In this document: piece after piece, positions 16,701 through 52,700 of the stretch
Layout: each line of letters starts with the position of its first letter
Position numbering within the stretch: position 1 is the first letter of the stretch
Assembly (NCBI RefSeq): GCF_011397635.1
Contig: NC_064755.1
Span: forward strand, 38,980,059-39,044,058
Origin: Epinephelus fuscoguttatus
Taxonomy: Eukaryota > Chordata > Actinopteri > Perciformes > Serranidae
Reading direction: 5' to 3'
Length of the DNA: 64,000 nucleotides
Position numbers and translations under genes: made by a program
Notes under the pieces: generated by a model
Database searches by the model: none
Told to the model about the DNA's origin: nothing
What the model saw: only the letters and a program-made list of their open reading frames with translations

Positions 16701-19700
16701 GAATATTGCTTTGTCAGTAAAAAAAAAAAAAACGTTGACAGGATGTCGTACCTCGGCTCCAGTGTATGCAACATAGCGTGAAAGCCCTGGTTTTCAGTAA
16801 CTGAACAGGGGCGCAAAGCCTTTGCAATAAAGATTGCAGTTGAGGTGGTGGTCTGCTCTTCCCTCTCTGAGTTGGGTGGCAACTTAGAAAGCGCTTGTTG
16901 CATCGTTCTCTGGTTAGCAGGGACCACAGCCTGGCACTTTCCCTCCAACTCCAGGTGGAAACATGAAAGGTGGTGTTTCATTTTAGTCGAACACACCTTG
17001 CACACAGTGTGGCTCCTGTCCAACTCCTGTTTCCCTCCAACTTAGTAAAAGCCAAAATGTTTCCATACACTAGCTTTTAAGCCAGGGGGTGCTGGTCGTA
17101 TTGTGTCCTTCTTCGTTTACTCATGCTCAGCCATGCTCTCATGTTGGTAGTTTAGTTTAGAGCGTAAACATGGCGCACACGGATGGTACGTACCAGTAAG
17201 GAACATGCAGACGTCAGAGGCACACACCTTATGTATGTTACGTGCCTCTTGCACATGTGGAGGTCTGCCGTTTTGCCTTTGGCTCTGGACTGATGATCAG
17301 AATGTTGAAAAATAAGTTAAGTTTCTGATTATTATCTGCATCGAGGCATAATCGTTCAAGAGAGAATTGCGAGGCATCTAAGAATTTTAAGTTTTTCTCC
17401 ATCCCTATATCTCGACCATGTGGGAAATAATTCCCTAGCAAAAATCATGTGATGACAAGACAACAAGACGGACGGTATTTTGTGGTGTGTCATTGCATCC
17501 TGCCGGTTAAGGGGCTAAAATTAGTGTGTTCACCTGGGTGTTGTGTTTGCATCACTGCCGATTGGGGCCGGAGCCAATAAATACCCATGACCGCTGCAGA
17601 GTCATTTGACCTGGGTGTGAGAGCCGATTGTTACCTTTCCCATTACATTAAAAAGCCAGATGTTAACGGATGTTTGCAGGTTTTTTGTGCAGTGGAAAAG
17701 GGGCTTAAGACTGTTTTTTCTTGTTTCTCTAGAAGGAGCTACCACATAGTTTGAATCCACTTAACTGACTCTAAACACGTTTGTGTCCCTTACAGAAAGT
17801 GGAGCTGCCGGACAGCCCTCGATCAACCTTCCTGCTGGCATTCAGCCCCGACAGGTGAGAACATCCATCCACACTTTGAAAAGTCGAAAATTTCAGAATT
17901 CACTTTGTAAAATGATTTAATTGAACTGTAACGCTGTCAGACTGAATGTGTAGTAAACATAGCACATCCAGTGTTTCATTTCCAGCACCTTGTAGCTGGA
18001 ATATGAAAATCTTGTTTTAACATATGAGCGAGTTTCCTCAGTGAGATTTGCTGCCCGTATGTTTACACAGAGCTGACAGTGAGTTATGTTCGTTATTAGT
18101 GAGGTGACAAACACCTGAAGCTAATATTTGTTCACTGAACTCTTTTTTCTTCCTGTAGGACTCTCATGGCTTCCACACACGTCAACCACAACATTTACAT
18201 AACAGAGGTGAAGACTGGAAAGTGCCTACATTCCTTAGTGGGCCACCGTAGAACCCCCTGGTGTGTGACCTTTCACCCCACCATCCCCGGCCTGGTGGCC
18301 TCCGGGTGCCTTGATGGTGAAGTCCGCATCTGGGACCTGCATGTGAGTATCACTGTCTAAGGTACCATAACCTCTGAGGTACTGTATCAAGTGACCCTGA
18401 TAAAATCACCCCTTTAGGTTTACCTACTAGACACCCTCAAATCATAAGTTTAGATAAAGAATGACTTCACTGTCATTGCTCAGACTACAGGCAGAGACAA
18501 AGACATGCAGTGTAGCATCTAACCACAAGTGTAAAAAGCAGTGAAGTACAGAATTAAACAAATTAATAGAATGTGGAACAGTAAGGAGTATGACATAAAT
18601 TATATTCACACTGTGACCTCCAGCATGCACTGGGGCGGTTTGCAGCCGGGTGTGAAGCGGTCAGGATGAGAGTCAGCACCTCCAAATCTGAGTCCACGGT
18701 TCTCTGCCAGAAAACAGTGGATTGCCCCCTCTGGGTTTGGAGAGTTACTGCCTCAAGTGAGGGAGTTCAAGTATCTCAGGGTCTTGTTCACGAGTGAGGG
18801 TAGAATGGAGCGTGAGGTGGATAGGTAGTTTGGTGCGGCTTCTGCAGTGATGCGGGCGCTGCACCGGACCATTGTGGGGAAGAGGGAGCTGAGCAAGAAG
18901 GCAAAGCTTTTGATTTACTGCTCCAACTACGTCCCAACTCTCACCTATGGTCATGAGCTCTGGGTAGTGACCAAAAGAATGAGGTCACGGATACAAGCAG
19001 CTGAAATGAGTCTCCTCTGTGGGGTGGCTGGGCTCAGCCTTAGAGATAGGGTGAGGAGCTCAGACATCTGGAGGGAGCTCGGAGTAGAGCCGCTGCTCCT
19101 TCAGATTGAAAGGAGTCAGTTGAGTTAGGGCATCTGATCAGGATCCCCCCGCGCACCTCCTGTTAGAGGTGTTCTGGGAAAGTCCCACTGGTAGGAGGCC
19201 CCAGGGCAGACCCAGAACATGCTGTAGGGATTACGTGTCTCATCTGGCCTGGGAACGCCTCGCGGTCCCCAATGTCTGGGGTGCTTTGCTTGGTCTGCTG
19301 CCCCCATGACTGGGCCCCAGATAAGTGGATGAAAATGAATGAATGGATGGATGGATAAATTATATTTCCTTTTATGATGATTATGCCCAACTTTCTTCCC
19401 TTGTCAATTGAAAAGAAATGAATCATTAAGTATTGAGACATTTTATGGTTGCAATTTATCATATGTGAGAATGAGCTTCAATGACAGTAAACTGAATCTC
19501 TTTGGATGTTGGACTGCTGGTTGGACAAAACAAGACACGAGATGACGTCAACTGTGATAGCTTTTTGACATTTTATTTACCACATGATCAATTTAGAAAT
19601 GAATTTATAGTTAAAATGATATGCAGCTCTAGAGATTTGTTGCCTCTGGCCTAATATTGCCCATTACTACTGTTTAAAAAAGAAATAGTTTTATCATTTA

Positions 19701-22700
19701 AATCCACTCCTCTTTCCCTCTCTCTGGTGAAATGATCTCTAATGAAACTGCTTTTACTTGCTAAAGTGGACTATGCCTGTTTTCAGAAAATCATACATTT
19801 TATTCCTGTGGTCTAAGACAGACAAAACTAATCCTAAACATGAACAACTCTCCCAAATTCAAACTTGTGATGTCATAGGGTGTAAAGTCTGGAGCTGCTC
19901 CATGGCCACTTAATGATGAAAGATGTTCTAGATGACACTGAGAGCACCCGGGGCAATGCTCTGAGTATATGGGAACACTTTCTGTTTCACAACTAAGTAC
20001 ACAGTAGAATAAAGCTCATTTGGGTATTAAAAAAGAAAACAAACGTATCAGTCTCCCATTCATTGTCTGTGGAGCGGCTCCAGACTTGACACCCTGTGAC
20101 ATCACAAGTATAAGACTTCCTTCTCTGGTTTTGAGAGAGAGTAGCTCATGTTCACAAGCATTGATTGGACTTTCCTCAGACATGGAAATAACACATTGGA
20201 ATTCTCAAGTTAGGTGGTGCTCCCCTTTAAATGATACACACGTGTTTGATTATCTGCAGTGGTAACACAGTGTTCTCTCTGCAGGGCGGCAGTGAGAGTT
20301 GGTTTACAGAGAGCAATGTTGCCATTGCCTCCCTGGCCTTCCACCCGACTGCTCAGCTCCTCCTGATCGCCACCAACAACGAGCTCCACTTCTGGGACTG
20401 GAGCCGACCGGAGCCCTTCGCTGTGGTGAAGACGGGCAGTGACACGGAAAGAGTCCGGTGGGTTGAACATGAGTCGTCATGGAGACTCTAGTTAGATAGT
20501 GAGGTTTTAAGAGTCCGTGTGGACCGCATTGTACCAACAGTGTTCCTTCATGTCACTGTGGTGGACAATGTTGGCCAAATTTCAAAATAAGGATACTGTA
20601 CAGATTAGGCGCCCCCCTAATATAATGGTAGGGCAAACACTGACTCTGTTGTTTCACTGATGAGTTAGAAATAAATGGATGTTACACTGTCCACATGAGC
20701 TGTTGTATGTTTCAGATATTTTCACCCCACTCAGTGTTTTTTTTCCCAGACTTAATTAGCGACTGATCTTTATGTTTTTGTGCTGGCCACACTTTTAAAA
20801 AGAGTGAACATGTCTGCAGAACTTTGTGTTTCCCTTTGTCGTTTAATTGTCCACGTGTTCCTTTCAGGTTGGTGAGGTTTGATCCTCTTGGTCACAACCT
20901 ACTGACGGCGATAGTCAATCCGTCCAATCAGCAGGTGAGCACAGCTGACTGTGTTTCTGTTGTTAATTGCTGGTTGAGTGGTGTTCTCAGAGCTGTTGAA
21001 TCTCTTTCAGAATGAGGAGGACTCTGAGGTTCCCATGGACAGTGTTGAGATGCCTCACTTCCGCCAGCGCTCCTTCTTGCCTTCTCAACCAGTTCGCCGC
21101 ACACCCATCCTCCACAATTTCCTCCACATCTTGTCGTCTCGCTCCCCGGGGGCTCAGGCGGGAGGCGAGCAGCCACGCCCTCTAGGTGACAATGGAAGCA
21201 GTGTTGGAGAATCTCCCAGCATGCCTCTGGCCCAGTACCCCAGCTCTGAACGCGGGCCTCCCTTCCCAGGCTGCACCCAGCATCTGGGCATGGCTTGCCT
21301 GTGCTACCGCTGCTCCGTCAATCGCAACCCCTCCCTTGCAGCCGATGTGACCGCCTCTGATCCCAGGGTGTCATCTGACGCTCCCCAGCCTCCCCCAGCT
21401 TCAACTTTCTCTTCAGCCCGTACGGAGCCCCGACAGCCCTCAGAGCGACCCTCAGCCTTTACCTCAGTCTACTACAGCGCCGGCACTTCTCTTAATCCCC
21501 CTGCACCAAGTGGCATAGAACCGCTCTCCACCTCCAGGCCAGGACCTGACTGGACACGTAACCTGCTAAGTATGAGGGAAGTTGGGGTGGGTTCAGGTGT
21601 GTTGCCTCCCAGAACCTCCTCCTCTTCTATCAGCCTTCTTTCAGTGCTCCGTCAGCAGGACGGCTCCTCTCACTCCCCTGTCTACACCTCTGCCTCTGAA
21701 GGACGGGGTTTCCCCCAACAAGGAGATCCCGGGGCCCGAGATGCTGCAGGCACAAGCAGCGGGCATCATCCGTTCTGGGATGGCTCTCGCAGCAACACGG
21801 CCTCTTTCCGCAATGTGCTGCAGTGCAACCTTAGCCGCTACTTCATGGAGTTTGATCGCATGCAGGACTTGGAGCCACCATTAGGAGGTGGCATGGCAGA
21901 TGGAAGCCAGGAGCAGAGCCAAGAGCTGCTTAATAATAACATGGACCCAGAGAGGCCTGGGCCTTCCACAACTTCCTCCACCTCCTCCCCTACCATCATT
22001 CATTACCAGCCTCCTCTCCCCCCTCCTCCTACCTCCCACAACCTGGAGAACAATGTTCCTCCCCCAGCGTCCCGAGGCCATCTAAACCGCTGCCGGGCCT
22101 GCCACAACCTGCTGACCTTTAACCATGACTCTCAGCGCTGGGAGCGAACCAACCAGGCCTCCTCCACCTCTGCCTCCACTCTGGAGCCCTCCTCTTCCTC
22201 CACCTCCTTTCCTTCTTCTTCTTCTTCTTCTTCTTCTTCCCCTTGGCAGCCCGAGGAGGGCAGGAGGACACTAGAAACCCAGCCCCAAGAGAGAAGGGTA
22301 CCGCCGGAGCCTAGCGAGCAGCCGCCTCCCCCTGGAGGTGGAGGAGCCGGAACAGTGGCCTTCCCAATAGCCCCGTCCCCCAGCCAGTCTGGAGAGCAGA
22401 CAGTGGGCTTGGTGTACAACCAGGACACAGCGCAGTGGGAGAGGGTGTACCGCCAAGCTGCTGCCGGCAGATCGGCAGAGCCGGCGGAGGCCTTAAGCCA
22501 AGAAATGCCTGTTGACCCTCCAGATGAGGACTCCCTGAGGAGGTACGCTCGTTGTGTCTGTCAGTGGCTAGTACCTGTATATACACTTATGTGAACACAA
22601 TGAGAGTGTGAAGTCTGAGATTAAAGTGGCCACATCGGTGTGATAAGTACATAATAATATCTGGCTTTGGGTTAATCTTGAGTTTTGCAGGCAAGTTTGA

Positions 22701-25700
22701 CATCTTTGTTTGACAGCCTGTCAACTGTTTATTAGGGTTCCTGTGAATCCTTCAAATGTCTTTAAAGGTATTGAATTCAATTATTCAAATAATAAGGCCT
22801 TAATTGGTATCAAAACATCTAATATCTGCGGCTTCGTTAATCCATATAATTGTACACATATTACTGTGTTTCACTCATGATTATCACTGTGGTACAATGC
22901 ATTTACACTGCAGAGACGTGACATGAAGAAGAAAATACTTAAAAATCATACAACCACGCTCAAAATAGACATAATTCGGTAGCAGAGATTGTAAAATGAC
23001 GGAAGAAAGAGAAAATAGCAAGGGGCGAGAAAATGACAGAAAGTATCCGAAGTTTGAGATTACAGCTGAAACACAATGTAAAACCAAACTACGTTACCGC
23101 ATTAAGCACAATGTCAGTGCATCTCAGCAGAAAGCATCCAGTCCATGGAGCCAACCTGACACAAGGTAACATTAACTTTAGCTTCCCTCTGTGCTGCCAG
23201 CGCCGAGAGCTCCACGCTCATCCTGTGGCAAAAAAACGGATGACAGGTAACCTGGAGACCCCAGCCGGCAGATGAGTGGGGAGCCCTAAGCGGCACGGAG
23301 GGAAGCCAAACTCCGTTCATCTGCACAAACTGCCCACACAGCGGTGACACAAAGCTGTTTGAAAATCAGTTTATTTTTCAAGGAAGTGGGTGCTAGTTAT
23401 GTTTTCACAAGTTGACTGCAGCATTTTATTTTCTGTTTATTTTCTTGAGCAAAACTGAGCTACCTTAGTGCTATAATCACAGAAAATAAAATGCTGTAGT
23501 CAATTTATGAAAGCCTGAGCTTCATTCATGTTACTATCATGATAGTGACACGCAGACGCCTACAGTACTCCCCTGACAATGATGCAAAAAAAAAGAAAGA
23601 AAAGAAAAAGAAAAATCTAAATACCAGTTGGTGGAAGTAGCAGTTGGAGCCAAATTATTGTCTGTGATTAAAGCAACAAAAATATTGATTTTTTTTTAAA
23701 AAGAACCCAGTTAGTTTTTAATTCAAGAGACCTGTCATAGTTTCTCTTGTATGTATTAACTATGGCTCTTCAATAAAGCAGAAGCATTTCTGAAGTTATG
23801 GCTCGATTGATCCATGTATTAATTGGTAGAATACTTGATTACTGAATAATTGATAGCTACAGCTCTAGTTGCATTGTAAAATCTCAAAATAATTGGTAAC
23901 ATCCCCCCCCCCCCTTAAATGTATTTGCCGAATGCCTCTCACAGTGACCTCACACAGATCAGGATAGTGGAACCAACACAACTATCTTTACTGTGGCCGG
24001 GATGCTCAGAGCAGAGGATCTACTGTCTGCAAGCTTAGTTGTCACTGTACCTTTGACGACATAGGAAATGCAGATTTATTGAAAATTGACTGTTCAACAA
24101 AGATTTTGTAGCATGGCTTAAACCGGTACAATTGTGATTACTGTAAAATTGGTCTAAATTGAGCTGTAGGAGCCCTGATTTATGGCTGACATGCTATTGG
24201 ACATGCATTTTAAGCCACAGGGTGACTTAAATAACATTTACCCAAATAATTTAATCCAGCTACTACCTCTCTAAATACACCTGTTGTGTTTCTTTCACAT
24301 AGGCGACTGTTGGAATCATCTTTGTTATCATTGTCTCGCTATGACATGTCAGGATCGAGAGACCACCCCATTTACCCTGATCCAGCCAGGTACATTAATA
24401 CACTTCATTTACCCCGATCCAGCCAGGTAAACTAATACACCTCATTTACCCCAATCCAGCTAGCTACACTAACACTGTTCATTTACCCCGATCCAGCCAG
24501 GTGCATTAATGCACTTCATTTACCCCGATCTAGCCAGGTGCATTCATACACTTCATTTACCTTCATCCAGCCAGATACATTAATACACTTCATTTACCTT
24601 CATCCAGCCAGGTACATTAATATACTTCATTTACCCTCATCCAGCCAAGTACATTAATACACTTTTTTTTTTACCTGATCCAGCCAGGTACACTACTACA
24701 CTTCATTTACCCTGATTCAGCCAGGTACAATAATACACTTCATTTACCCTCATCCAGCCAGGTACATTAATACACTTTTTTTTACCTGATCCAGCCAGGT
24801 ACACTACTACACTTCATTTACCCCGATCTAGCCAGGTAAACTAATACACTTCATTTACCCCGATCTAGCCAGGCAAACTAATACGCTTCATTTACCTTGA
24901 TCCAGCCAGATACATTAATACACTTCATTTACCTGATCCAGCCAGATACATTAATACACTTCATTTACCCTCATCCAGCCAGGTACATTAATACACTTCA
25001 TTTACCTTGATCCAACCAGGTACATTAATACACTTCATTTACCTGATCCAGCCAGATACATTAATACACTTCATTTACCCTCATCCAGCCAGATACATTA
25101 ATACACTTCATTTACCTTCATCCAGCCAGGTACATTAATACACTTCATTTACCCTCATCCAGCCAGGTACATTAATACACTTTTTTTTACCTGATCCAGC
25201 CAGGTACACTACTACACTTCATTTACCCTGATTCAGCCAGGTACAATAATACACTTCATTTACCCTCATCCAGCCAGGTACATTAATACACTTTTTTTTA
25301 CCTGATCCAGCCAGGTACACTACTACACTTCATTTACCCCGATCTAGCCAGGTAAACTAATACACTTCATTTACCCCGATCTAGCCAGGCAAACTAATAC
25401 GCTTCATTTGCCTTGATCCAGCCAGATACATTAATACACTTCATGCACCTGATCCAGCCAGGTACACTACTACACTTCATTTACCTGATCCAGCCAGATA
25501 CATTAATACACTTCATTTACCTTTATCCAGCCAGGTACATTAATACACTTCATTTACCTGATCCAGCCAGATACATTAATACACTTCATTTACCTTCATC
25601 CAGCCAGATACAATAATACACGTCATTTACCCTCATCCAGCTAGGTACATTAATAGACTTCATTTACCCCAATTCAGTCAGGTACAATAATACACTTCAT

Positions 25701-28700
25701 TTACCCTCATCCAGCCAGGTACATTAATACACTTCATTTACCTGATCCAACCAGATACATTAATACACTTTATTCACCTGACCCCGATTCAGTCAGGTAC
25801 ACTGCTACACTTCATTTACCCTGTTCCAGCCAGGTACATTCTTACACCTCATGATACCCCGATCTAGTCAGGCACATGACTATACTTTATCTCAGTATTA
25901 CCTCTAATACTGTGGTCATACTTCCTTTGTTGTTATAAGGATGAACCTGAACTCGTCCTCTGTGCTGTCCAGGCTTTCTCCAGCTGCTTACTACGCCCAG
26001 AGGATGATCCAGTATCTGTCAAGGCGGGACAGCATTCGCCAGCGATCACTTCGCTACCAGCAGAACCGCCTACGCGCCATGTCATCCTCATCCGACAGTC
26101 CTGCCACCAACCCGTCCAGCTCCATGGACAACAGCGATGTGGACTTTGAGGAGTTGGAGTAAATTTCATTTTGTCTCTTACGTAGTTTAAACTTGTTTTA
26201 AGTATATGAAACGTGATGATATTCTGTATCTAATCAGATTTAGCTGAATGATGGGTGAATTCAGAAAGCTGCACAAATTGCCCACAGTCTGGCACAAAGG
26301 CAACATTAATGCTTTGTAACAGATAATCAGACGCAAAAAGAGGGCAGATTGCTCTCAGCTGCAAAACTTAATGAGTGTTTCTGCACTGTAATATCATTAA
26401 CTCAATATCCTTTGTGAATTGGACGATGAAACGGGGTAGATGAAGTGAAGCGCAACTCATTGTGCTGTCAGCGGCCACAGTGCATTTTTTGTGAATCCGC
26501 CCATGAGTGTGGACGTTGTCTGAGACAGGATAAGAAAAACACTGTTTGCTTTGCACAAAGACAAGCAAAGTTGGTGGACTATCAAAACAGTGGCTGAAGG
26601 GAGTTGAAGCGTTATGGCATCCAAGTGTTTGAGTTGTGCCAAGAAAACTGTAAACTGTAATATCACACTGTCGTGATCTGAGTCCTTTAAAATCGATCAG
26701 CCCAATACTTATACATATTTACTTAAATGATGATAAAATATGTATCTGACACATTTAAATAACAGCTGTAGATACTTTATCTGACGCATCTTATTTTCCC
26801 TGAGCATCATGATCCAAATGCTGAAGTCCCTGATTCAAAAATATTAAAAATATAAACTTTAATTATTGATGTGATTTGAAAGATTAACGGACAAAATGCC
26901 CATATGGGCCCTGATACAACTCAAGACGTCTCTAGTTATTAGTTCTGCCTGAGGACCTGAGTGATGTCATCAGTTTATAACACTTGATTTAACTGCTGAA
27001 GCATCATATTAGCTTTGCTCAGTTTAATAGTGTAGTCCTGCCATAGTTGATTACAGCGACCTTTAACTCTTTGAACATACATATGACATGAATATTGTGT
27101 TCAGACTAGGGCTGCCCCCTAATGGTCGACCAAACGTTAGTCCAGAAAGGACATTAGTCGTCAAGATTTCATTGGTCGCTTAGTCGCAGAAAAAAAACAA
27201 ACATACGTGAAACTCTATTAGCAGCTGTGCCTTGTCAAAATAAATCAAAACCCATATGACTGGACCGTGTGGACATTTAATTTGAAAGGACAGACACAGA
27301 AAGTGGCCACGCTCAGCAGTCAGACAGGAGTCAGGTTACAAACCAATCACAGCCAACCGATATCTTTCCCTTCTTCTGTAAATATTCAGTCTGATAAATT
27401 CGGAAAAGTTGATCATGTTAGTGCAGGGCTACCCAGAGCTTTACATCTGTCCCACAGACGATAGGCCGACACGCTTATAAGCAGCTCCTGGAAGAAGATC
27501 AGCTCTGCACTCTGGCACAGAAAAGGCACCCAGCACCCGACCTCAAGTTTCCAAGGGGTTAAAGACGCAGCATGTGTACGGCCCCTAATTTCCAGGGCTG
27601 GTACCTGCAGTTATTCCACAGGCTAGTTAATAACATGTCGGGCAGGAAATCCAAAGTGTGGGATCATTTTGAGAAGGTGAAGGACGAACCCAAGGTGATA
27701 TGTAAACTCATCTTCATTGGTCGACTACAAACATGACGTATCATGTGAAACATGGAAGTAGCTACATGCCCATTAGCCCACAGCGTCATTAACAGGCGGC
27801 TCGCTCAGTGTGTGACGTGCACTTGGAGATAAAATATAGGCCTATATTAATGAAGGTTCATTAGTACGGTTTGTATTTCTCTGTAATGTAGCACAGTGTT
27901 AACAATGTTACTGACACTATTCTTTCTCACACCTTCAACTCAAACCATTGTGTTGCCCCACCCAAAATATATAGTTTAGTGATTAAATTCATATCGTAAA
28001 CATGCGGGCGACTAGTCGACTAATGGCCCTAAATGGTGACTATTGGTTGACTAGGAAAATCTAACGCTTGAATTAACAGTTCAATAGAGTCTTTCTGCCA
28101 AGATTGATTATAGCGACCTCTAACTCTCTGAACTTTTATATAACAAAAAAACTATCCATAAACATATATAACTGATTTGTCTGCTCTACATCTATCAGAG
28201 GCAGTGCCAACACAAGCTTTAAATAAGTTTTCTTACATTTTCAGCCCAGTTATTATTTTGTGAGGAGGAGAAAATGGTGTTTTGTTCCAATAATGGTTTT
28301 GTTCTCTTGTTATATTGGCACTTAAGCCTTTTCCTAGCATGTAATCCTGTACTATATTAAACAGTGCTTGTCATTTTGTTTTTCTGTGTAGCCTCACCAT
28401 TTTCTTTATTCCAGTGATAATGGAGACAGAGCGAGGCACAGGACTCCACGTAACGCCAGGATGTCTGCACCTTCGCTGGGTCGCTTTGTCCCACGGTGAG
28501 TCAGCACTAAGCTCTAATCCTAACTAACTTTTCTGCTTCGTCTGTGCAGAGCAGTCTGCAGACTGTTCTCTTTTCTAAACACACTATCAGTAATATTCCT
28601 TGAAGTTCAGAAAGTGAAGGAAAACCTGAACTTGTAATATGCAGTCCTGGATGAAGAAGTTTGATTTTTCTGTGTTTCAGTTGTCATTGTGACATGTCCA

Positions 28701-31700
28701 GAAATCTTTTGTTGTTCTAGTCCAGGCTTGGATTTAAATGTTTTGTCCTGTTGTCCTTCAGGCGTTTCCTCCTCCCTGAATATCTGCCCTATGCTGGGAT
28801 CTTCCATGAAAGAGGGCAGCCTGGTCTGGCCACACACTCCTCTGTCAACAGAGTACTCGCTGGTAAATACACACACCTTGCAGTGCTACCAAAATTACCA
28901 TTTTAGGTTTGGAAATCACCAGCTGCAAGCCAAATGCTGATAAGGTTTGGTGCATGTTGTTCAGTTTCACAACTTCACCAGACAAATTCAGTTACGAAAT
29001 CTAACTAACTGGTAGGACACTGAAAATAATCAGTAACTGACCTGACCAGCTTTTATTTTGTTGCTTCTCTTCTGTATGAATGTCCTCAGTAACAGGGCTT
29101 ACTGTTGTTTTCCAGGTGCATCGATCGGGGACGGTCAGTCCGCAGTCGCCAGCAACATCGCTAACACCACCTACCGTCTGCAGTGGTGGGACTTCACCAA
29201 ATTTGACCTGCCTGAAATCAGCAACGGTACAACAACTGCTTACCTGCATTTTTCTGCTTTGAGTCGTGGCTGTTTATGATGCAGCAATACTTGTGCAGCA
29301 GACCCTATGTGGTAGCTTATGCATGTCACCTACGCCGTTGCGATCATTTATACATGTGTGGTGGTGTTTCTGTGAAGTGCTGTAAAGTTTAGTTGATTCC
29401 AAAGTAGACAGCGCTTCATTTGAAAAATGTGTCGAAATGCTGAAGAGAAATGTGTCTGTGTTTGTTTGTCTCCTCTCCAGCTTCAGTCAACGTTTTGGTG
29501 CCAAACTGTAAGATCTATAACGACGCGAGTTGCGACATCTCTGCAGATGGTCAGCTGCTGGCGGTCTTCATTCCCAGCAGTCAGCGGGGTTTTCCAGATG
29601 AGGGCATCCTGGCCATCTACTCTCTGGCTCCCCACAACCTGGGAGAGATGCTCTACACCAAGAGATTCGGTAGTGTTCCTCAACAAGTTAATTATATGTT
29701 TGACACAAAGATTCAGTAAACTGATCTTAAAATTCGAAGGTGTCAGATGAAAGTGACAGTTTGGATTCTGCAGTTTTATGACCCTTATTAAGCAGTAATG
29801 TCTACAACCCAAAAAGTCCAGTTTGCATTACTGTACTGAGATCCATCTTTCTTTTGTAATGTACCCAATCAGCGTTTTAATGTTGACTTTCCTTGCACAG
29901 GTCCAAATGCTATCTCTGTTAGCTTGTCTCCGATGGGCTGCTATGTGATGGTCGGCCTGGCCTCTCGCAGAATCCTGCTGCATCCCACCACCGACCACAT
30001 GGTGGCACAAGTCTTCCGCCTGCAGCAGCCACACGGAGGAGAGACCTCCATCAGGGTGAGACAGATCCACCAGTACTGACACTGTTTCTAATACAGCAGC
30101 AGTTCTGATATTACTACTAAATCTACAACTAATACTTCTGTTACTGAAGCTGTAATACAGCAGTCTGATGAAGACCTTTCTGAGTGAGGGAAAAGCCCAA
30201 AAAGTCAATGCACTTTGCTGTAGTTTGTTCTGTATTGTATTAATTTCATAAAATGTTTTAATTAATTCTCAGTAACTAATGTTTAACTGGGATATTACGT
30301 CCAGCTGTGTATCAATCAGTCACTTTTATTTGTCCTCTAAGGGAAGTTGGTTGTGCAACAGTGAAACCAGAAACACTTTATATAAATACACAATGGAGAA
30401 AAGCAGAGTTAGTGAACAAGCCTAACCCAGTTTGATTTTACGCAAAACAGCTGAACAGATCTTGACAAGTTCTGACAAATTAGAAAGTAGCCATGCTGTG
30501 AGCCGAACTACTGTCGAACGTCCTGTTTTTGTTTATTCCTATCGCTCGCTTTGAAAGCGCCGCAATGGACGAGGAGCAGCTACTTCATAAAGTTGAAATG
30601 AGGAATTATCTATGATACCTTCTTATCTCATTACAAAACCCAAAATGACGTGCCAGCTTGTTGGAGGGAGATCACCAGGAGGCTGGAAGTTTCTGGTAAA
30701 TGACTGTCGGTAATAACGAGCTAAGCTACTTGCTGTTGGCTATAATGTCTGTTATGTAATTAAATATCACAATATAAAATGTGTGTTTTCTGTTTTAAAA
30801 AGTAATATTGCAAAGGGTGGAAGATACCAAGTAAGCTACTCACTTATCTTTTAAGTGGTTATGTCTCCATTAGGTTCTCAAGCACACAGCTGATAGCTGC
30901 GTGGTCTGTTTATATGAGATAGGCTAACAGAAGAGCTTATTCAGTGGATTCAGTGTGAACAGAGAGTTCTGATGTTACGCGATGGGACGTGATAGTCAGA
31001 TGCTTTGTGTTTTCTTTTAGGACATGGTGTCATTATGTTCCACTCAGGATCGACAGCTCACTGAAGTGGGACACCTGGCAAAATTCAGTGTACCAGTCTG
31101 GTGTCAAACCACTTTGAAAATTTTCATACTGGCTCAATTTTAAAAAACAGAGTACACAAGTTAAAACAATACAGGCAGAGAAATTCTCAACACCTTAAAC
31201 GTAATTCGGTTTCCCTCTGTTGAGACAGATATCTGCAGGGATAGATCCACTAGTGGAAAATATTCTTAAAATCAAGAGGAGAAAACATTTGCTGGATGTG
31301 GTTTATGGCAACGTTTGATGGGTGTTCTTAATGAAAATGATATTTCTATTAAAATGTTATTTAGAGCTAAATGTAAATATATTAGAGCTGAAACAATTAG
31401 TTGATTAATAGGTTAGTTAAATGAGGTTTGGTGTTTCCGACCTAGTAAAGACCTCACTGTGAGCTCTGTGAACAGCAATTTTACTATTTTCTAACAGTTA
31501 GTGTTGATGCTGTTAAATGATAATGACAATATTATAAATACAATATGTTAATTCAGTGCTAATTGCAAGCCCTGTCTCAGAAAACTGTCTCAGTTAATGG
31601 AGAGCAAATAACATCTAAAGAATGGGTAACATTCATAAAAATGCTGAATAACTTAATATTCTCTTTAAACAGCAGGACTGCCGCTGCCACAGTAGTTGAA

Positions 31701-32471
31701 TCTGTGTATCATCAGTGTGTGTTGAATCTGCTGTCGTGTTTCAGATGGTGTTCAACGTGGTTTACCCGATGGCTCCAGACCAGAGGCGCCACGTCAGCAT
31801 CAACTCTGCTCGCTGGCTGCCGGATCCAGGGATGGGTTTGGCTTATGGAACCAACAAGGGAGACCTGGTGATCTGCCGGCCTGTGTGAGTCTCTGAACTC
31901 CTGATGCGGACGTGTCTCAGCTGTGCCGTCACACATTTAAATATATACTTTCTATTCTGGGCCTGTATTTATCAAACATGTCAGAATCAGTGTCAAGATT
32001 TCTGTGGACTGAAACCAGCCCAACCTCAGAGGAGGACTGAGGGATATTTATAAAGTCTCCTACACTGACTGTGACGCAGTAGAAACCATGATGAGGTGTG
32101 GGAGGGTTCTGAGTGTTAGATAAGGATTAAAGTGGAAATGGGGGTAGATCATGTATGTGACTTGTTTTGAGGAGGCAGGTAGTATAAGATTTCCTTTTTA
32201 GTATTTAAAATGGTTGAGCTGCACTTAGTGTATTGCTTAGCATGTTACATTTTTAACTGTTGAACTGGTTGTATCAATTGATCAAAACTGTTATTGTCGG
32301 TTAACGTTTTTCATTTAAATCTTTATTAAAACAATTTTTATAACATTGACATAACAGTTACAACAGCACACTACAATATTGAAATAACTGACAAATTATA
32401 AGAGCTAACAAAACTAAAACTGCTTGGGTAAATGCACAATTTTATAGCCTTAAGGATTAGTATATCTATTG

Positions 32472-32505
<34 letters not shown>

Positions 32506-33972
32506 TTTGAGTCTTGTATAGTCTGTTTTTCTCATTCTCTTTCTAGTTGTGCTTCTTGTCATCTCAGCATTTGTGTCAATTTCTCCATTAAAAGTTGGTT
32601 AACAATTTATTATTATTATTATTATTATTAACATCCCTAACATTAAAGGTCCAGTGAAAATAAGAAGTGACACGCCGGCTCTAGATAGGGCCATTTACGT
32701 TTTCGCATTGGCCAGCAGAGTTAGCAGCCCCTGTGCGACAAGAGCGTAGGAAAAACACTGATTTCTTTTTTTACGTGAGACTGCTTTATTTGGTGTTCTT
32801 ACCAGTTTTAACCCCCTGGTCTGTTTGTTTTGGAGAGGAAGAGACATCTGTGTATAGCTTGGCTCCCAGTAAAAAAAAAACTCTTTACATTGAACACTAA
32901 AGGAATTCCAACCAGGAGCAGTTTCAGCTGGTTGAAATCTGCAGTCCTTAAGCGGGATGAATACTTGTGCCTCAGCTCTACGCCGTAGCCTACCCACGTG
33001 ACTTAGGCTATTGTGAGCATTTATACTTGTGCGGTGGTGTGTCTGAGTGACTCTGCAGTTACACCTCCAAAACACTAGTCAGTGGCGGGGTCTCTGTCAA
33101 GTGCTGTGAAGTTTAGTTGATTCAAAACACACATTAAACACACATTAAACATGGCTTAATATCTTACTGACTTTTGCAGGGCTCTTAGGTGGCTTCTAAA
33201 AGACATTGATTTGCAGATTAAAAGTGTAGCCATCATATCAGCTGTAGCCAGTCACATTGCTTTACAATGCCTGTGGCGTATCTCACATTTATTGTGCAGT
33301 ATTGATGTTAGAAACCCCTCTGTAAGCTTTGGCCACCTCTTTATGAGGAACTTGCATGCTTCTATGTCGTGTCCCCCACAGATGGGAGGATTTATTTCTT
33401 TGATATCACCCAGAACAACATGAACGCAGCTTTCTGCACCCCACAGAAAGTCCATCACAATGATAACTCATTAGAACAAAATGATTTAATTAGGTCATGG
33501 TTATCAAGCGTTCCCTAAACATCTCTGCACCTTTCCTGAAGTTTGGCTGAGATTGGACTTTTTGTCTGAGTTTACTGTTTACTGTCTTAAAAATTGCAGC
33601 AAAAATATGTTAGTCTTCATCACTTTTGTCCGGTGATGAGTAATTTTCTCCTCTGAGATGTTTGATAAAGATGAGCTGTGTTTAGCGGAGTTATCAGTAA
33701 CCTCAGTGAGTCAAATAACTTTGTGCATCTTTCCATACCAACTCAAGGAAAAAGTAGAATGAACACAGATGTCCTCCTGGTTTGGAGGATTTCCCTGCCC
33801 CCTCCTCCACACTGAGACGTTGGCTGATGTGATTATCCTAATGATCAATCTGAACAGGAAGACCATTAATTGGTGAAGGTCAATTAGTGCTTTAAATAAG
33901 GTCATGGTCTGTGTGATTCCACGAAGAAGACCCTCCTCTGCTTTCCAGACTTCCTGAACAGAAGTGAATTAA

Positions 33973-34037
<65 letters not shown>

Positions 34038-37000
34038 AGGTTCTACAGAAGCGATGGTGAGAGCCCCGCGGAGTCAAGCAGTGAACCATTATTCTCCGTC
34101 AACAACAGTGGAACAAGCCGGACGCGAGGTTCTGACAGACCAGGGTGAGAACTTGCAAATGACAAAACACCAGTAATGTAATGAAGAAGACATTTTATTT
34201 GTGATTACTCATTTGAGTACTGAAATTTGTGAATTGTATTTGTTTTTATTTCAAAATAAGAGCACACTGTCATTCAATGTAACTTCACCTTAAATCAACA
34301 AATCAAGTTTTTGACTTCCTTTAAAGAACCAAATTATCAGGATGAGAATAAACGGGTTTATTTTAGCTGATCACAGCAGCCTGTTAGCCTTTGACATGTT
34401 TGACTAACCGTGGTAGGATGTCAAGTTCTTTCACTGAGCATGAGTGTTCTTTGAAATCCTAAGATGCACCATGTGACCAAAAATTAACCAATACAAACAA
34501 AGTTAACAGAGAAGGCTTTCAAAGAGAGCTGCAGGTCGACTTCTGAAAAAAAAAGAAAAAGTCTTCTATGAATTAAAACTACTGTTTGTAAAATTGGATC
34601 GTCATCGGTACTTTTTGACATAATTGTGTTTTTAACCAGTGTAACAGATGACGAGTATCTACCTCATCTCAAAACATTATATAAGTTGTTTTGTTTTTTG
34701 TCATTTTCGTTGTGCTGCACTAACCCAAAATTATTCGTCTCTGATGTTTCTTTAGTCCCAATCGCTCTGGCTGGAGATTGGACAGAGACATGGGTTTGAT
34801 GAACGCAATTGGTCTTCAACCACGACACCCCGCCCCTTCAGTGACATCACAAGGAACTCAGACACCAATCATCCAGCTGCAGAACGCCGAGACACAAACA
34901 GAGAGGGACCTATCAGAGCCTAGCGTCTCACAGCCTGCACCCAGTACTGAAACCCTATAATACCTTCATTATACTGATGATACTTACATTGTAATACTAA
35001 CTCTCTAATACCTTCATTATAATAACACTATAGTGTCTTCACTGTAACAGGCAATATACAATACTGACAATGAGATGTTGCACTCTGATGTAGTGACATC
35101 ATTTTTATGCCTCCACCCTGGCGATTGCCGTGGCTGGAGGCAATATGTTTTCAGGTTGTTCATACGTACATACATATGTAGGTGCGCCCGCCCGTCCCAT
35201 TCTCGTGAACAAGAAGGCCTTGACGGATTTTTTCCCAAATTCAGATTTGGTGGTCAAAGGTCAAGGTCACTGTGACCTTGCGTCCATCTCATTCTTGTGA
35301 ACCAGATTTTGCAAGAATACCCTGAAGGAATTTCTTCAAATTTGGCATGAACATCCACTTGGACTCAGCAATGTACTGAGTGGACTTTGACAGTCAAAGG
35401 TCAAGGTCACTGTGACCTTGTATCCGTTAATCTCGTGAACACATTATCTCAAGAATACCTTGAGGGAGTTACCTCATTCAGTGGTTTTGGTGGTCACAGG
35501 TCAAGGCCACTGTGTCCTCATCATTCTCATTCTTGCAAACACAATATCTTAAAAACACCTAAATGGAATTTCTTCAAATTTGGCACAAACATCCACTTAG
35601 ACTCAAGGATTGAGATGATTAGAATTTTGCAGTCTAAGGTTAAGGTTACTGTGGCCTTGCGTTTGTCTCATTCTCATGAACGCAATATCTCAAGAAGGCC
35701 TTGAGGGAGTTTCTTTGTTTTGCGGTTTTGGTTGTCTTGGGGGCAAAAGTCAAGGTCACTGTGACCGCATCTTTCTCATTCTAGCAGACATGGTATCTCA
35801 GAAACACCTTGAGGGAATTTCTTCAAATATGGCACAAATGTCCACTTAGACTCAAGGATGAACTGAAATTCTTGTTAAGGATTAATCAAGAAAATAATCG
35901 TTTACGGTCCTGCATTCTCCAGTCTTGAGTCTGTACGTGTCTTTTGTTTTGACGTCAGGTGAAACCTTTTCTTATTTTTTGTATAGACTGGATATAAAGG
36001 AAAACTCTTCAGGAGACCGTTGAAAGGTTTCACTGTAAGAAATCGATGCTACCACAGGGAGTCATATATACAGCACAGTGTGTCCAGTGATATCAAACAC
36101 TTGTTTTATACTGAGACTTGATTTTACCGTAGTGAGACTGGAGGTTGTGTTAAAGGATCATTGATGTGCCTTCTTTCCTCAGATGTTGCTCCTGAGACTC
36201 CGTCCACGAGTGGAGCAGCTCCGGGGCAGCAGGAGGCGTCTCAGACCAGCAGAGCAGCTGATGGCAGCCAGGGCGAAGCCTCAGCCGACGCAAACACATC
36301 CGCTACTTCTACTGGTACTGCTCCACACTGACACATAAACACCATGTGTTCTTCTGCAGTATCTCCTAAATTAAACTCATTCCTTAATTTCAAAATAAGT
36401 TCTGTGGTGTGCTTTAAGTTGACACAAGTTTTGTTTGACTGTCGTGTGTTTTGAGGAACTACAAGTCGGTTTTATTATAGTTCTGTTTTCTTTCACTTCT
36501 TTCTGTGAAACTTGAGTGATTGAGCTTAATGTGGGCTCTCATTGACTGTAAGGCAGGGATACTCAACGTGCTTTGCACAGGGCTACTTCTGCAAAATAAC
36601 GAGGCCTGACGCCACCAATTAAAAAGAAAAATTAATATATTTGTGAAGTTAGCAGGTGTTAGTTTGATTCCACTGAACAGAGGAAATATATGTAAGTATG
36701 AGCACACGTCATTGTATGTTAAAGATGTGAAGTAAAATCTGTGGTGTGTGTGAGGATAATATTATCATGTTCCCAATGCTAATTTCAGTTAGCATGTCAA
36801 TGATAATTAACGTAATGTGTTAGCATTGAGGTAATTGACCAAGCTAGTCATTTGCCACATGATTGTAGCAGTTAGAAAAAGAGTTTGGTTTATAGCTATG
36901 GCTAATCATCATGCTGTAACCTGTGACAGGCTGTTATTACTCTCGATTCTTCATGTGACCTCTGTTGTTGCTCTCATTGGTCCAGGAGAGTCTCCAGAAT

Positions 37001-37527
37001 TCGGCACAGGTGAAGACGCTCTGGCACGGATCCGCCGGCTGATCGCTGAGGGCGGTATGACAGCTGTGGTCCAGCGGGAGCAGAGCACCACCATGGCCTC
37101 CATGGGCGGCTTCGGAAACAACATCATCGTCAGTCATCGCATCCACCGTGGCTCCCAAACGGGCACAGGGGCCTCCAGGCCTGCGGCGGACCCCTCTATG
37201 GCCCCCTCCACCTCAGGTCCTCTCCTCATCACCCAACCACAGACCTACGCCTCTCCCCAGGCTTCCAACCCGTCTGAACAGCTCGCCCCCATGTGGGGCT
37301 CCCAGGTGCTGTCGGGCCCTCAGCCCTCTGGCCTCTCTCTGGCCATGGACATGGACGACGTGTTTGACGGGGGGCGAACGGACGACGACTCCATGCCGGG
37401 TCCCTCCTCTTCCTCCCTGCTGTTGTCTTCCCCCTCTTCCTCCTCCTCCTCCTCTCACAGCCCCCTCCCCGGCAGCGGGGGCGGGGGCGGCCCCAACAGT
37501 TACCCTGGCGATCCGTACAGCAGGTAG
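13704..37527 (+). CDS. ambra1: AMBRA1, autophagy and cullin-4 ligase adaptor (18 coding exons)
   Basis: Exons: 13704-13835, 17796-17854, 18159-18342, 20285-20457, 20868-20934, 21011-22542, 24303-24389, 25973-26158, 28415-28495, 28762-28862, 29116-29226, 29481-29669, 29901-30055, 31745-31884, 34040-34144, 34756-34943, 36183-36314, 36986-37527. All junctions are GT-AG and in phase; the 4164-nt CDS gives 1387 residues (human 1298). AMBRA1 is the DDB1-CUL4 substrate receptor for D-type cyclins and regulates Beclin-1/ULK1 autophagy. The N-terminal WD40 half (residues ~45-200, with [16 protein letters not shown] and GEVRIWDLH) and the C-terminal half (~900-1065, with [14 protein letters not shown] and INSARWLP) flank a long Ser/Pro-rich linker. 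The mTORC1-site context LPDSPRS is kept (S51). Two TQT dynein-light-chain motifs lie near 1135 and 1147. The start is the ATG in AACATGG, aligned with the human N-terminus. Confidence 0.97.
16473..17023 (-). pseudogene. hAT (ZBED-like) transposase fragment, broken
   Basis: The minus strand reads a cysteine pair in [19 protein letters not shown] (BED-type zinc finger). It continues with [37 protein letters not shown] and HTLEPRYDI. Then, after a frame change at a poly-A run (16719-16732), it reads [16 protein letters not shown]. This order is the N-terminal half of hAT transposases of the ZBED1/4 type. The element probably starts near 16372 ('ggggtgggaatctcttgg') and is degraded upstream of the finger. 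It sits in ambra1 intron 2 in reverse orientation and cannot make an active enzyme. Confidence 0.8.
18622..19358 (+). mobile_element. 3' fragment of a LINE reverse transcriptase
   Basis: The plus strand encodes [57 protein letters not shown] and [20 protein letters not shown]. This is the C-terminal part of a fish non-LTR retrotransposon reverse transcriptase, resembling the Rex1/Babar type. Stops and frameshifts occur before and after. The 3' end carries GAATGAATGG(ATGG)n, as in these elements. It is a dead, 5'-truncated copy inside ambra1 intron 4. The subfamily is from memory. Confidence 0.85.
21011..22542 (+). CDS. ambra1: ambra1 large exon encoding the disordered linker
   Basis: This single 1532-nt exon encodes residues ~206-716 and links the two WD40 halves. 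Conserved islands include [45 protein letters not shown], a LNNN...ERPGPS stretch and [16 protein letters not shown] (a paired-cysteine CRAC motif), separated by Ser/Pro-rich filler. A (TCT)n run at about 22205-22240 encodes poly-serine and may vary in length. The exon ends in phase 2 at EEDSLRR, as in the human protein. Confidence 0.95.
23414..23501. repeat. 22-bp inverted repeat (MITE remnant)
   Basis: Arms at 23414-23435 and 23480-23501 are inverted copies with one mismatch (GACTGCAGCATTTTATTTTC against its complement). A related single arm ('aataaaatgctgcagt') lies near 11600. It probably represents a small foldback element in ambra1 intron 6. Confidence 0.6.
24303..24389 (+). CDS. ambra1: ambra1 exon whose 3' junction seeds a minisatellite
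   Basis: The exon encodes [14 protein letters not shown], a short variable part and HPIYPDPA, matching human AMBRA1. Its donor is CCAGCCAG|GTACAT at 24389/24390. The last 21 coding bases plus the first 16 intron bases form the unit of the adjacent tandem array. The phase (1 in, 2 out) fits both neighbours. Confidence 0.93.
24390..25911 (+). repeat. Minisatellite of duplicated splice-donor junctions (about 40 units)
   Basis: Units of 35-38 bases with core CATTTACCCTGATCCAGCCAG|GTACATTAATACACTT (broken here at the junction) run head to tail from the real donor to the end of the array. Variants include CTCATCC, CGATCTAG and units with T8-T10 before ACCTGATCC. A block of about 14 units is itself duplicated with a 516-base offset (for example, 'actaatacgcttca' near 24878 and 25394). 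The left part of each unit matches coding sequence conserved in AMBRA1, so the exon is the likely source. Open frames here are artefacts of the repeat. Confidence 0.93.
27115..28065 (+). mobile_element. hAT-like transposon remnant with BED-finger start (copy 2)
   Basis: This is the opposite-orientation partner of the element at 7.1-7.9 kb. It begins 'agggctgccccctaatggtc' and its end matches the reverse complement of the other copy's start. ATG at 27635 opens [19 protein letters not shown] and continues to KVICKL before the frame degrades. It lies in ambra1 intron 8. The long matching interior and shared deletion show that both derive from the same non-autonomous family. Confidence 0.78.
29285..29405. 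repeat. Interspersed repeat, second copy at 32.96-33.13 kb
   Basis: The phrases 'atttatac.tgtg.ggtggtgt' and 'aagtgctgtaaagtttagtt' are shared with 32960-33125, where the element is longer. Both copies lie in ambra1 introns. The class is unknown. Confidence 0.6.
30565..30694 (+). pseudogene. MADF-domain exon of a Harbinger-type element (frameshifted)
   Basis: ATG at 30565 opens [17 protein letters not shown] one-base shift then continues as [14 protein letters not shown] and [12 protein letters not shown], followed by a donor-like CTG|GTAAAT. The pattern (acidic start, hYhYD, later W-x-x-I) is that of a MADF/Myb-like DNA-binding domain, the second protein of PIF/Harbinger transposons. The frameshift makes it inactive. 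It lies in ambra1 intron 13 on the same strand. No matching nuclease gene is visible nearby. Confidence 0.6.
33976..34035 (+). repeat. (GT)30 microsatellite adjoining an ambra1 acceptor
   Basis: Sixty bases of uninterrupted GT are followed directly by TTTAG, the acceptor of the exon at 34040. The tract stands where a polypyrimidine tract would normally be. Confidence 0.97.
34040..34144 (+). CDS. ambra1: ambra1 exon replacing the human LIR segment (frame-neutral)
   Basis: The exon has 105 bases with phase 2 on both sides, so skipping it keeps the frame. It encodes residues ~1066-1101: [20 protein letters not shown], then [16 protein letters not shown]. The part EPLFSVNNS aligns with human ETVFTVHSNS. 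The human residues just before that (NSGVEYYWDQL, with the LC3-interacting core WDQL) have no counterpart. The acceptor choice is forced: the next possible AG gives an early stop. Confidence 0.9.
34756..34943 (+). CDS. ambra1: ambra1 exon with two TQT dynein-light-chain motifs
   Basis: The exon encodes residues ~1101-1163, beginning [19 protein letters not shown]. It contains [19 protein letters not shown], a pair of TQT motifs as in human AMBRA1, where they bind dynein light chain and tether the complex to the cytoskeleton. The donor CCCA|GTACTG at 34943 is chosen because only it joins the next exon in frame (AAT, N). Confidence 0.9.
35105..35870 (+). repeat. Interspersed repeat with nuclear-receptor-like palindromes (copy B)
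   Basis: About six tandem modules of 110-130 bases repeat 'tctcattctcgtgaac', 'cttcaaatttggca.aaac', 'tccacttggactca' and 'gtcaaaggtcaaggtcactg'. Perfect AGGTCActgTGACCT palindromes lie at 35264-35278 and 35404-35418, each overlapping TCAAGGTCA. Later modules have one or more mismatches. The family matches the copy near 1 kb. It lies in the ambra1 intron between 34943 and 36183. Confidence 0.85.
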
Positions 37528-45479: not shown

Positions 45480-45750
45480 CATTCCTCTGTTACATATACA
45501 CTACTGCTGCTGGGGACTGACGGAGGAGACGGAGCTGAGGAGGTGAAGTGAGCACAGACTGCAGGACCAACACCAGCAGCACATCCAACATCTAGTAGGT
45601 CTGAAAACCTCAGCAGGTCCAACATCAGCAGGACCAGCATCTGCACCAGGACCAACATCTGCACCAGGACCAACATCAGCAGGACCAGCATCAGCACCAG
45701 GTCCAACATCTGCTCCAGGATCAACATCAGCAGCAGGTCTGACATCTCCG
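45480..45750 (+). other. chrm4: Putative chrm4 5' non-coding exon
   Basis: This segment ends in a strong donor, TCTCCG|GTAAGT at 45750/45751. The chrm4 coding exon begins 1.6 kb downstream with an acceptor just before its ATG, so an upstream leader exon is required. The segment contains an imperfect 18-bp tandem repeat (CAGGACCAACATCTGCAC type, 45610-45735). It appears as a leucine/methionine-rich shadow frame on the other strand. The start of the exon is not defined. Confidence 0.4.
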
Positions 45751-49739: not shown

Positions 49740-52700
49740 AAGTCATTAAAAAAAGTCCTAAATGGTCAAAATATAGTACTTCATACAAAAAAATATATAA
49801 AAACAGTCACAGTATAGAGGAAGATATAAAAAAGTCATAGTATAGCATGTCATAAAAGTGTCATTGAAAAGGCTACGTTGTAGTGTGTTATGAAAAAAAT
49901 AATTAAAACGTAATATATACTTAAAAATTCAAAAGAAAAACTCCTAATATAGTATGTGGTGAGAAAGTCATTAAAAAATCTTAGTACAATCTGTCAAAAT
50001 ATCACTAAAGAAGTAAAGTAACGCAGGTCATAAAAAAGTCACACAAAAATTCATAGTATAGTATGTCATATAATGTTTTTCTTCAAAACAATTACTCTGT
50101 AGTATGGCAATAAAAATTTCATTTAAAAATGTTGTCACATACTATTTGACCAAAATAGTCATTTAGGAAATCATTGTATATTATGTTACAAAAAATTATT
50201 TAAAAAGATTTACAATATTATGGTACTAAATATTTCAACTAAAAAAGTCATAATATAGTAACTCATTGAAAGGTAGTAAAAAGTCAGACTGAAATATTTT
50301 TTACATATTTCATGGAAAAAAATCTTTAAAACAAGTCATAAAAAATCCTAATGTAGTATGTTATGAAAAAAATGTTAAAAAATGTAAAGTAACTTTAAAG
50401 TAAAGTAAATTTTCTTAAAAATATAAAGTACAGTAGGGAACTCATACTAGTCATAGTAAACGATGACTATGACAGAGTCATAGTACAGTATGGCACCAAA
50501 AATGTCATCAAAAGGTTATAGTATAGTAAGGTATCAACAATTTCACTAAACGTCACAGTATAGTCAGCCATCAAAAATCTCATCAAAAAGTCATAGTATA
50601 GTAAGGTACCAAAAATCTCATCAAAATGTGATAGTACAGTAAGGTATCAAAAATCTCATCAAAATGTGATAGTATAGTATGGTATCAAAAAATTCACTAA
50701 AAAGTCATAGTATAGTCAGGCATCAAAAATCTCATCAAAATATCATATTATAGTACGGTATTAAAAATTTCACTAAAAAGTCATGGTATAGTAAGGTACC
50801 AAAAATCTCATCACAAAGTCATGGTATAGTAAGGTACAAAAAATCTCATCAAAAAGTCATGGTATAGTATGGTGCCAAAAATCTCATCAAAATGTCATGG
50901 TATAGTAAGGTACCAAAAATCTCATCAAAAAGTCATGGTATAGTAAGGTATCAAAAATCTCATCAAAATGTCATGGTATAGTAAGGTACCAAAAATCTCA
51001 TCAAAATGTCATAGTATAGTATGGTACCAAAAATCTCATCAAAAAGTCATGGTATAGTATGGTGCCAAAAATCTCATCAAAATGTCATAGTATAGTAAGG
51101 TACCAAAAATCTCATCAAAAAGTCATGGTATAGTAAGGTATCAAAAATCTCATCAAAATGTCATGGTATAGTAAGGTACCAAAAATCTCATCAAAATGTC
51201 ATAGTATAGTATGGTACCAAAAATCTCATCAAAAAGTAATAGTATAGTAAGGTACCAAAAATCTCATCAAAAAGTAATAGTATAGTATGGTACCAAAATC
51301 TCCTCAAAAGTCATAGTATAGTATGGTAAAATCTCATCAAAAATGTCATGGTATAGTAAGGTACCAAAAATCTCATCAACATGTCATAGTATAGTATGGT
51401 ACCAAAAATCTCATCACAAAGTCATGGTATAGTAAGGTACCAAAAATCTCATCAAAAAGTCATGGTATAGTATGGTACCAAAAATCTCATCACAAAGTCA
51501 TGGTATAGTAAGGTACCAAAAATCTCATCAAAATGTCATAGTATAGTATGGTACCAAAAATCTCATCAAAAAGTCATGGTATAGTATGGTGCCAAAAATC
51601 TCATCAAAATGTCATAGTATAGTAAGGTACCAAAAATCTCATCAAAAAGTCATGGTATAGTAAGGTATCAAAAATCTCATCAAAATGTCATGGTATAGTA
51701 AGGTACCAAAAATCTCATCAAAATGTCATAGTATAGTATGGTACCAAAAATCTCATCAAAAAGTAATAGTATAGTAAGGTACCAAAAATCTCATCAAAAA
51801 GTAATAGTATAGTATGGTACCAAAATCTCATCAAAAAGTCATAGTATAGTATGGTACCAAAAATCTCATCAAAAATGTCATGGTATAGTAAGGTACCAAA
51901 AATCTCATCAACATGTCATAGTATAGTATGGTACCAAAAATCTCATCACAAAGTCATGGTATAGTAAGGTACCAAAAATCTCATCAAAAAGTCATGGTAT
52001 AGTAAGGTACCAAAAATCTCATCAAAATGTCATAGTATAGTATGGTACCAAAAATCTCATCAAAAATGTCATGGTATAGTAAGGTACCAAAAATCTCATC
52101 AAAAAGTAATAGTATAGTATGGTACCAAAAATCTCATCAAAATGTCATAGTATAGTAAGGTACCAAAAATCTCATCAAAAAGTAATAGTATAGTAAGGTA
52201 CCAAAATCTCATCAAAATGTCATAGTATAGTAAGGTACCAAAAATCTCATCAAAATGTCATAGTATAGTATGGTACCAAAAATCTCATCAAAAAGTAATA
52301 GTATAGTAAGGTACCAAAAATCTCATCAAAAAGTAATAGTATAGTATGGTACCAAAATCTCATCAAAAAGTCATAGTATAGTATGGTACCAAAAATCTCA
52401 TCAAAAATGTCATGGTATAGTAAGGTACCAAAAATCTCATCAACATGTCATAGTATAGTATGGTACCAAAAATCTCATCACAAAGTCATGGTATAGTAAG
52501 GTACCAAAAATCTCATCAAAAAGTCATGGTATAGTATGGTACCAAAAATCTCATCAAAATGTCATAGTATAGTAAGGTACCAAAAATCTCATCAAAAAGT
52601 CATAGTATAGTATGGTACCAAAAATCTCATCAAAATGTCATAGTATAGTATGGTACCAAAAATCTCATCAAAAAGTAATAGTATAGTAAGGTACCAAAAA

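Follow-up and report, generated by a model that had tools for sequence, protein, structure and literature searches.

The stretch of Epinephelus fuscoguttatus DNA considered here (64,000 nucleotides of contig NC_064755.1, positions 38,980,059 to 39,044,058, hereafter the window) carries the gene ambra1, and within one of its introns lies an array of short tandem repeats which begins at the exon-intron boundary itself and which repeats, in each of its units, a piece composed of the end of the exon, the splice donor and the start of the intron. The gene was recognized by means of a query of joined exons (approximately 20.3-20.9 kb plus 29.1-30.1 kb), which matches the PDB chain 8wqr_B, AMBRA1, with an E value of 3.9e-126, and the exon that bears the array sits between the two parts of ambra1 that match the WD40 halves in that chain. 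The solved AMBRA1 construct consists of human residues 1-204 fused to residues 853-1044, the intervening stretch being disordered according to the accessible part of the paper (PMC10665379), and because residues 205-852 are omitted from it, the absence of a PDB match for the junction peptide was to be expected; nor did this peptide find a match in Pfam or NCBIfam. The array-bearing exon occupies one genomic place by DNA search, the intron that separates it from the next exon measures 1,583 bases, and the joining of base 24389 to base 25973 gives one reading frame with no stop.

Zebrafish has two copies of ambra1. In the present genome the gene (20231-37524) looks single-copy, to judge from searches that covered 1,046,998,120 bases in 26 contigs: a junction peptide of 90 amino acids and a WD40-C peptide of 137 amino acids found this locus only, the peptide search scoring its best candidates only. 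As no paralogue was detected, there is no paralogue intron that could serve for an outgroup comparison.

Tandem Repeats Finder reports one array, at 24369-25877, with a period of 37, 40.7 copies and 84% matches, and a wraparound alignment resolves it into a unit 0, which straddles the junction, followed by 40 units up to base 25887, among which 27 are distinct as aligned (insertions not counted). The minisatellite that an earlier reading of the bare letters (the original prediction) had announced at this junction is real, with a period of 37 base pairs (bp) and about 40 copies, and its dimensions are those of minisatellites in general, that is, many head-to-tail tandem units of approximately 10-100 bp. 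A genome search with the unit, of a type that passes over very common words, returned 17 matches, all of them inside this array. A block of nine units recurs 14 units downstream, the two copies being identical at 330 of 333 aligned bases, plus one 2-base gap, with a longest exact run of 229 bases at a distance of 516; this near-identity suggests, for the one assembly at hand, that growth or rearrangement of the array is a recent event.

Table 1. Positions in the window of the ambra1 exons, the repeat array and its signals
Feature	Position	Strand	Basis
ambra1 exon; its final 21 bases, 24369-24389, form the exonic half of the unit	24303..24389	+	Open frame into 25973-26158
Next ambra1 exon	25973..26158	+	Frame open across the join with 24303-24389
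True donor CAG|GTACAT, exon ending at 24389	24387..24395	+	Open frame into next exon
Unit 0, likely progenitor: 21 exon bases plus 16 intron bases, spanning the donor	24369..24405	+	Wraparound alignment, consensus comparison
The 40 array units in the intron, 37 bp with a range of 36-42 bp	24406..25887	+	Wraparound alignment
First decoy donor CAG|GTAAAC, unit 1	24424..24432	+	Scores above true donor
TAA reached on intron retention or from the 25 GT decoys past unit 1	24433..24435	+	Reading frame
Nine-unit block, first copy	24591..24925	+	Recurs at 25109-25441
Nine-unit block, second copy	25109..25441	+	Alignment to 24591-24925
T10 tract	24663..24672	+	Base count
T8 tracts	Start 24776, 25181, 25292	+	Base count

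The comparison of the units strongly supports the derivation of the array from the exon-intron junction, the exon having come first. When the most frequent base of the 40 units is taken at each position, the junction copy is obtained at 37 of 37 positions, and none of the 40 is identical to it, the mean number of differences being 3.5; a junction copy that coincides with the consensus of units, none of which equals it, is what an exon-first origin predicts, and the claim that the tandem unit was made from exon end, donor and intron start is well supported. The last 40 bases of the exon share an exact run of 14 bases with the following 1.6 kb, as against a best of 12 in 200 mononucleotide shuffles, and at none of the other eight ambra1 junctions examined, nine in all, does the exon-to-intron exact match exceed that of its shuffles. 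In terms of process, a tandem duplication of the 37 bp spanning the donor would have seeded the intronic minisatellite, of which the copies are what is now seen, and further slippage or unequal exchange, including the duplication of several units at a time, would have enlarged it. The reverse order, in which the array existed beforehand and the end of the exon was copied from it, is extremely improbable, and nothing in its favour was found, as the end of the exon reads in a single frame through the junction, equals the consensus of the array, and encodes a peptide (PIYPDPA) that we take to match human AMBRA1.

The state of the repeated donor varies along the array. It reads GT in 26 of the 40 units, GC in three and neither of these in 11, while CAG|GT is found in 24 units and CAG|GTA in 22, so that the statement that each unit keeps CAG|GTA fails, and the estimate of about 40 decoy donors was too high. 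Two measures were applied to these sites, a vertebrate weight matrix and the energy of pairing with the U1 end; the true donor obtains 5.46 and -7.4 kcal/mol, and units 1, 12 and 26 obtain 7.53 and -8.6 kcal/mol, the 9-mer of the first decoy, CAG|GTAAAC, being found again after bases 24835 and 25351. By the matrix, three of the 26 GT decoys stand above the true donor, ten tie with it and 13 stand below, which agrees with the forecast that some units would match U1 better than the true donor does, the first decoy being one of them; the farther decoys are, by score, mostly equal, weaker or dead. Another ambra1 donor, ACG|GTACAA (29224-29232, after base 29226), has a value of 1.48 by the matrix, and weak donors are therefore not peculiar to the array exon. 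Between 24926 and 25770, the +1 G is lost (G to A) together with one C of the exonic half in five of the six units that are without that C (units 15, 18, 30, 32 and 37; unit 29, also without it, keeps GT), and this linked loss is a type that has spread within the array.

Splicing from the donor of unit 1 would add 37 bases, shift the frame and meet a stop, as had been foreseen, namely the TGA that the next exon carries at 26147, and premature stops are met by all of the GT decoys (26/26), in the linker that connects the two WD40 halves, a site of truncation that agrees with the earlier claim, with PDB 8wqr_B and with the accessible part of its description (PMC10665379). The open frame argues that the exon's own donor would be the one mainly used, and the nearest decoy, which lies 37 bases further on and has a slightly higher score, would probably serve in a minority of transcripts. 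Further ambra1 exons lie downstream of the premature stop, and for this reason the decoy-spliced RNA would be expected, by the general rule, to be directed to nonsense-mediated decay.

In summary, we consider it probable that this is a junction-seeded and recently growing minisatellite which most likely travels as a neutral passenger of the intron, with at most a leaky use of the first decoy. Under selection, the donor bases should have been clearly better conserved than the other positions of the unit (an expectation of our own rather than a published criterion), and they are not: the donor core (-3 to +3) occupies rank 18 of 37 six-column windows, where rank 1 is the least variable; the +1 G counts as one of the more variable bases, being changed in 11 of 40 units; and the divergence from the junction copy is 0.0952 per site in the exonic half and 0.0953 in the intronic half. 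Because the donor bases are kept no better than the rest and both halves have diverged equally, there is no sign of selection in these figures, in which changes at one position are not independent events owing to the copying among units, and neither a keeping nor a purging of decoys is evident from them. Several points weigh against this reading: (i) the core is slightly less variable than the remainder, with 0.079 vs 0.098 elsewhere in the 40 units, and with 0.093 vs 0.103 elsewhere when the 27 distinct units, 17 of them with GT, are counted once; (ii) the 26 surviving GT sites are many, and the first decoy beats the true donor by both measures, such that the competition could be substantial; (iii) the mean calculated accessibility of the GT decoys, 0.007, is below the 0.027 of unit-by-unit shuffles, none of 30 being as low; (iv) the template used for aligning the units was the Tandem Repeats Finder consensus, which is identical to the junction copy; (v) and finally, the conservation of the exon end in the human protein is presumed.

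One conceivable function of the array is that of a dial, in which U1 would be contested between the true donor and the donors of the units, and the share of ambra1 sent to decay would rise with the number of copies. This is fairly unlikely in our estimation, even though 26 of the 40 units offer GT decoys, three with a higher score than the true donor and ten with the same score, and with stops for all 26, and even though precedents exist, in that two downstream units are employed as donors in IFI6 (PMC4526556, in its accessible part), and the alleles of VNTR6-1 in TERT contribute to expression via splicing and decay (PMC11830802, likewise). Against it stand the lack of preferential keeping of the donor bases and the 14 of 40 units without GT, and, as the use in IFI6 is named for two downstream units in the portion of that source available, extra length may add little. 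The further proposition that the expanding array sets the dose of ambra1, each added unit providing one more frame-shifting donor and the possibly fast-changing length tuning the loss to decay, is unlikely. Of the two readings, the neutral one is better supported by the sequence than the length-dependent dial.

Other roles would not involve competition between donors alone. The units could act as acceptor plus donor, giving rise to cryptic exons of 37 bases, or the intron could be spliced out in several steps that start at sites inside the array. The original prediction had pointed to at least four tracts of T8-T10 before an AG, of which exactly four are found, and to a TTAAT or CTAAT in the units, as a fit to a loose branch-point consensus, which occurs in 26 of the 40. 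The AGs of the four tracts have a pyrimidine share of 0.81 and a T share of 0.62-0.69, as against 0.75 and 0.44 at the true acceptor, 24 of the 40 units contain CAG|GT, and the duplication of AGGT segments can create introns, as stated in the accessible part of PMC4974935. We nevertheless regard such use as very unlikely, since a pyrimidine share of 0.81 is attained by no fewer than 14 of the stretch's 81 AGs, which by this measure makes the tract units nothing special, the AG after the tract belongs to a TCCAG 4 bases ahead of CAG|GT, the intron has only 1,583 bases, and an exon of 37 bases would shift the frame. Equally remote is the idea that the decoys are masked by UACC(U)G:CAGGUA pairing within or between units, the array being silent by virtue of its structure. 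To the low accessibility of the decoys already mentioned can be added their median, 0.0047, as against 0.010 when CAGGTACAT is implanted elsewhere in the window (300 places); but among 60 arrays in which all units were permuted alike, four are equally low, 51% of the CAGGTACAT implants have values of 0.01 or less, the range for eight other donors of ambra1 is 0.0003-0.036, the true donor has the same accessibility after the in-silico removal of the array (0.0115 vs 0.0122), and a four-unit stretch folds at a z of -1.25, with 22 of 200 shuffles as good. The contrast of the decoys with all 9-mers (0.007 vs 0.224) was discarded as evidence of masking, given that low values are likewise obtained for implanted sites and for the other donors of ambra1. 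There is one pair of inverted repeats of at least 12 bases in 24303-26160, and a scan of the window with Rfam at the gathering score gave no families. On the whole, the calculated structure does not convincingly set the decoys apart.

Other repeats are found in the window, which also contains a seven-transmembrane (7TM) receptor gene and a midkine-type gene; between these two, at 50476-56897, lies a far larger tandem array with a 38-bp unit and approximately 170 copies. Overlapping repeats of 18, 33 and 51 bp occur at 45614-45737 within an open stretch rich in GPTSAGPASAPG, and in the ambra1 region a 249-bp unit is repeated 2.6 times (35246-35866). The open stretch at 18829-19125, which presumably resembles the end of the reverse transcriptase of a long interspersed nuclear element (LINE), had no match in Pfam.

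The ambra1 array constitutes a natural experiment on the choice of donor: behind the true donor stand 40 near-copies, spaced almost evenly within a single intron, and among them are intact sites, sites that outscore the true donor and dead ones, with clear outcomes for the frame. The gene is a conserved one of autophagy and the cell cycle, and a high use of decoys would make this a rare example of control by an unstable repeat being exerted on such a gene through splicing.

Several known systems can be placed beside it. Tandem duplication of AGGT segments is described as a means of intron gain, with the Rogers model, ATP2A1 and the 24-bp exonic repeats of fission yeast as examples, and multi-copy duplications of this kind yielded introns in fission yeast (PMC4974935, accessible part). 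The likeness lies in the tandem copies of an exonic stretch with AG|GT; the difference is that there the new intron arises inside an exon, whereas the copies in ambra1 lie in an existing intron, and the exons that flank them join in frame without any new intron. In TERT, the 38-bp array VNTR6-1 of intron 6 bears on splicing and decay, and its deletion alters the ratio of isoforms (PMC11830802, accessible part); it is thus also an intronic array whose length is tied to splicing, but its authors point to G-quadruplexes, and the accessible part of the paper describes no origin from an exon-intron junction. The MSY2 minisatellite of DDX3Y (PMC3039753) was considered as a parallel and set aside, as it is a case of transcription start and not of donors, according to the part available. 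A search of the literature by title and start of abstract, largely without subscription papers, gave no further junction-derived donor array, and one on ambra1, alternative splicing and zebrafish, at the same depth, gave nothing on a donor array in ambra1 among the 12 of 27 matching papers listed.

The closest relative is the human gene 6-16 (IFI6, G1P3), for which Turri, Cuin and Porter reportedly described in 1995 (Nucleic Acids Res 23:1854), as their title has it, a minisatellite providing multiple splice donors. Two downstream repeat units serve as donors there, with three species of mRNA (PMC4526556, accessible part), so that the use of the donors is reported for IFI6, whereas the unit donors of ambra1 are candidates. 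In both genes the array starts at the exon-intron boundary and the unit includes the donor of the exon. The IFI6 unit has 12 bp, and the choice among its donors keeps the frame, in contrast to the 37-bp, frame-shifting unit of ambra1; in other words, the kind is already known from IFI6, to which the ambra1 array adds a case whose unit, unlike that of IFI6, shifts the frame.
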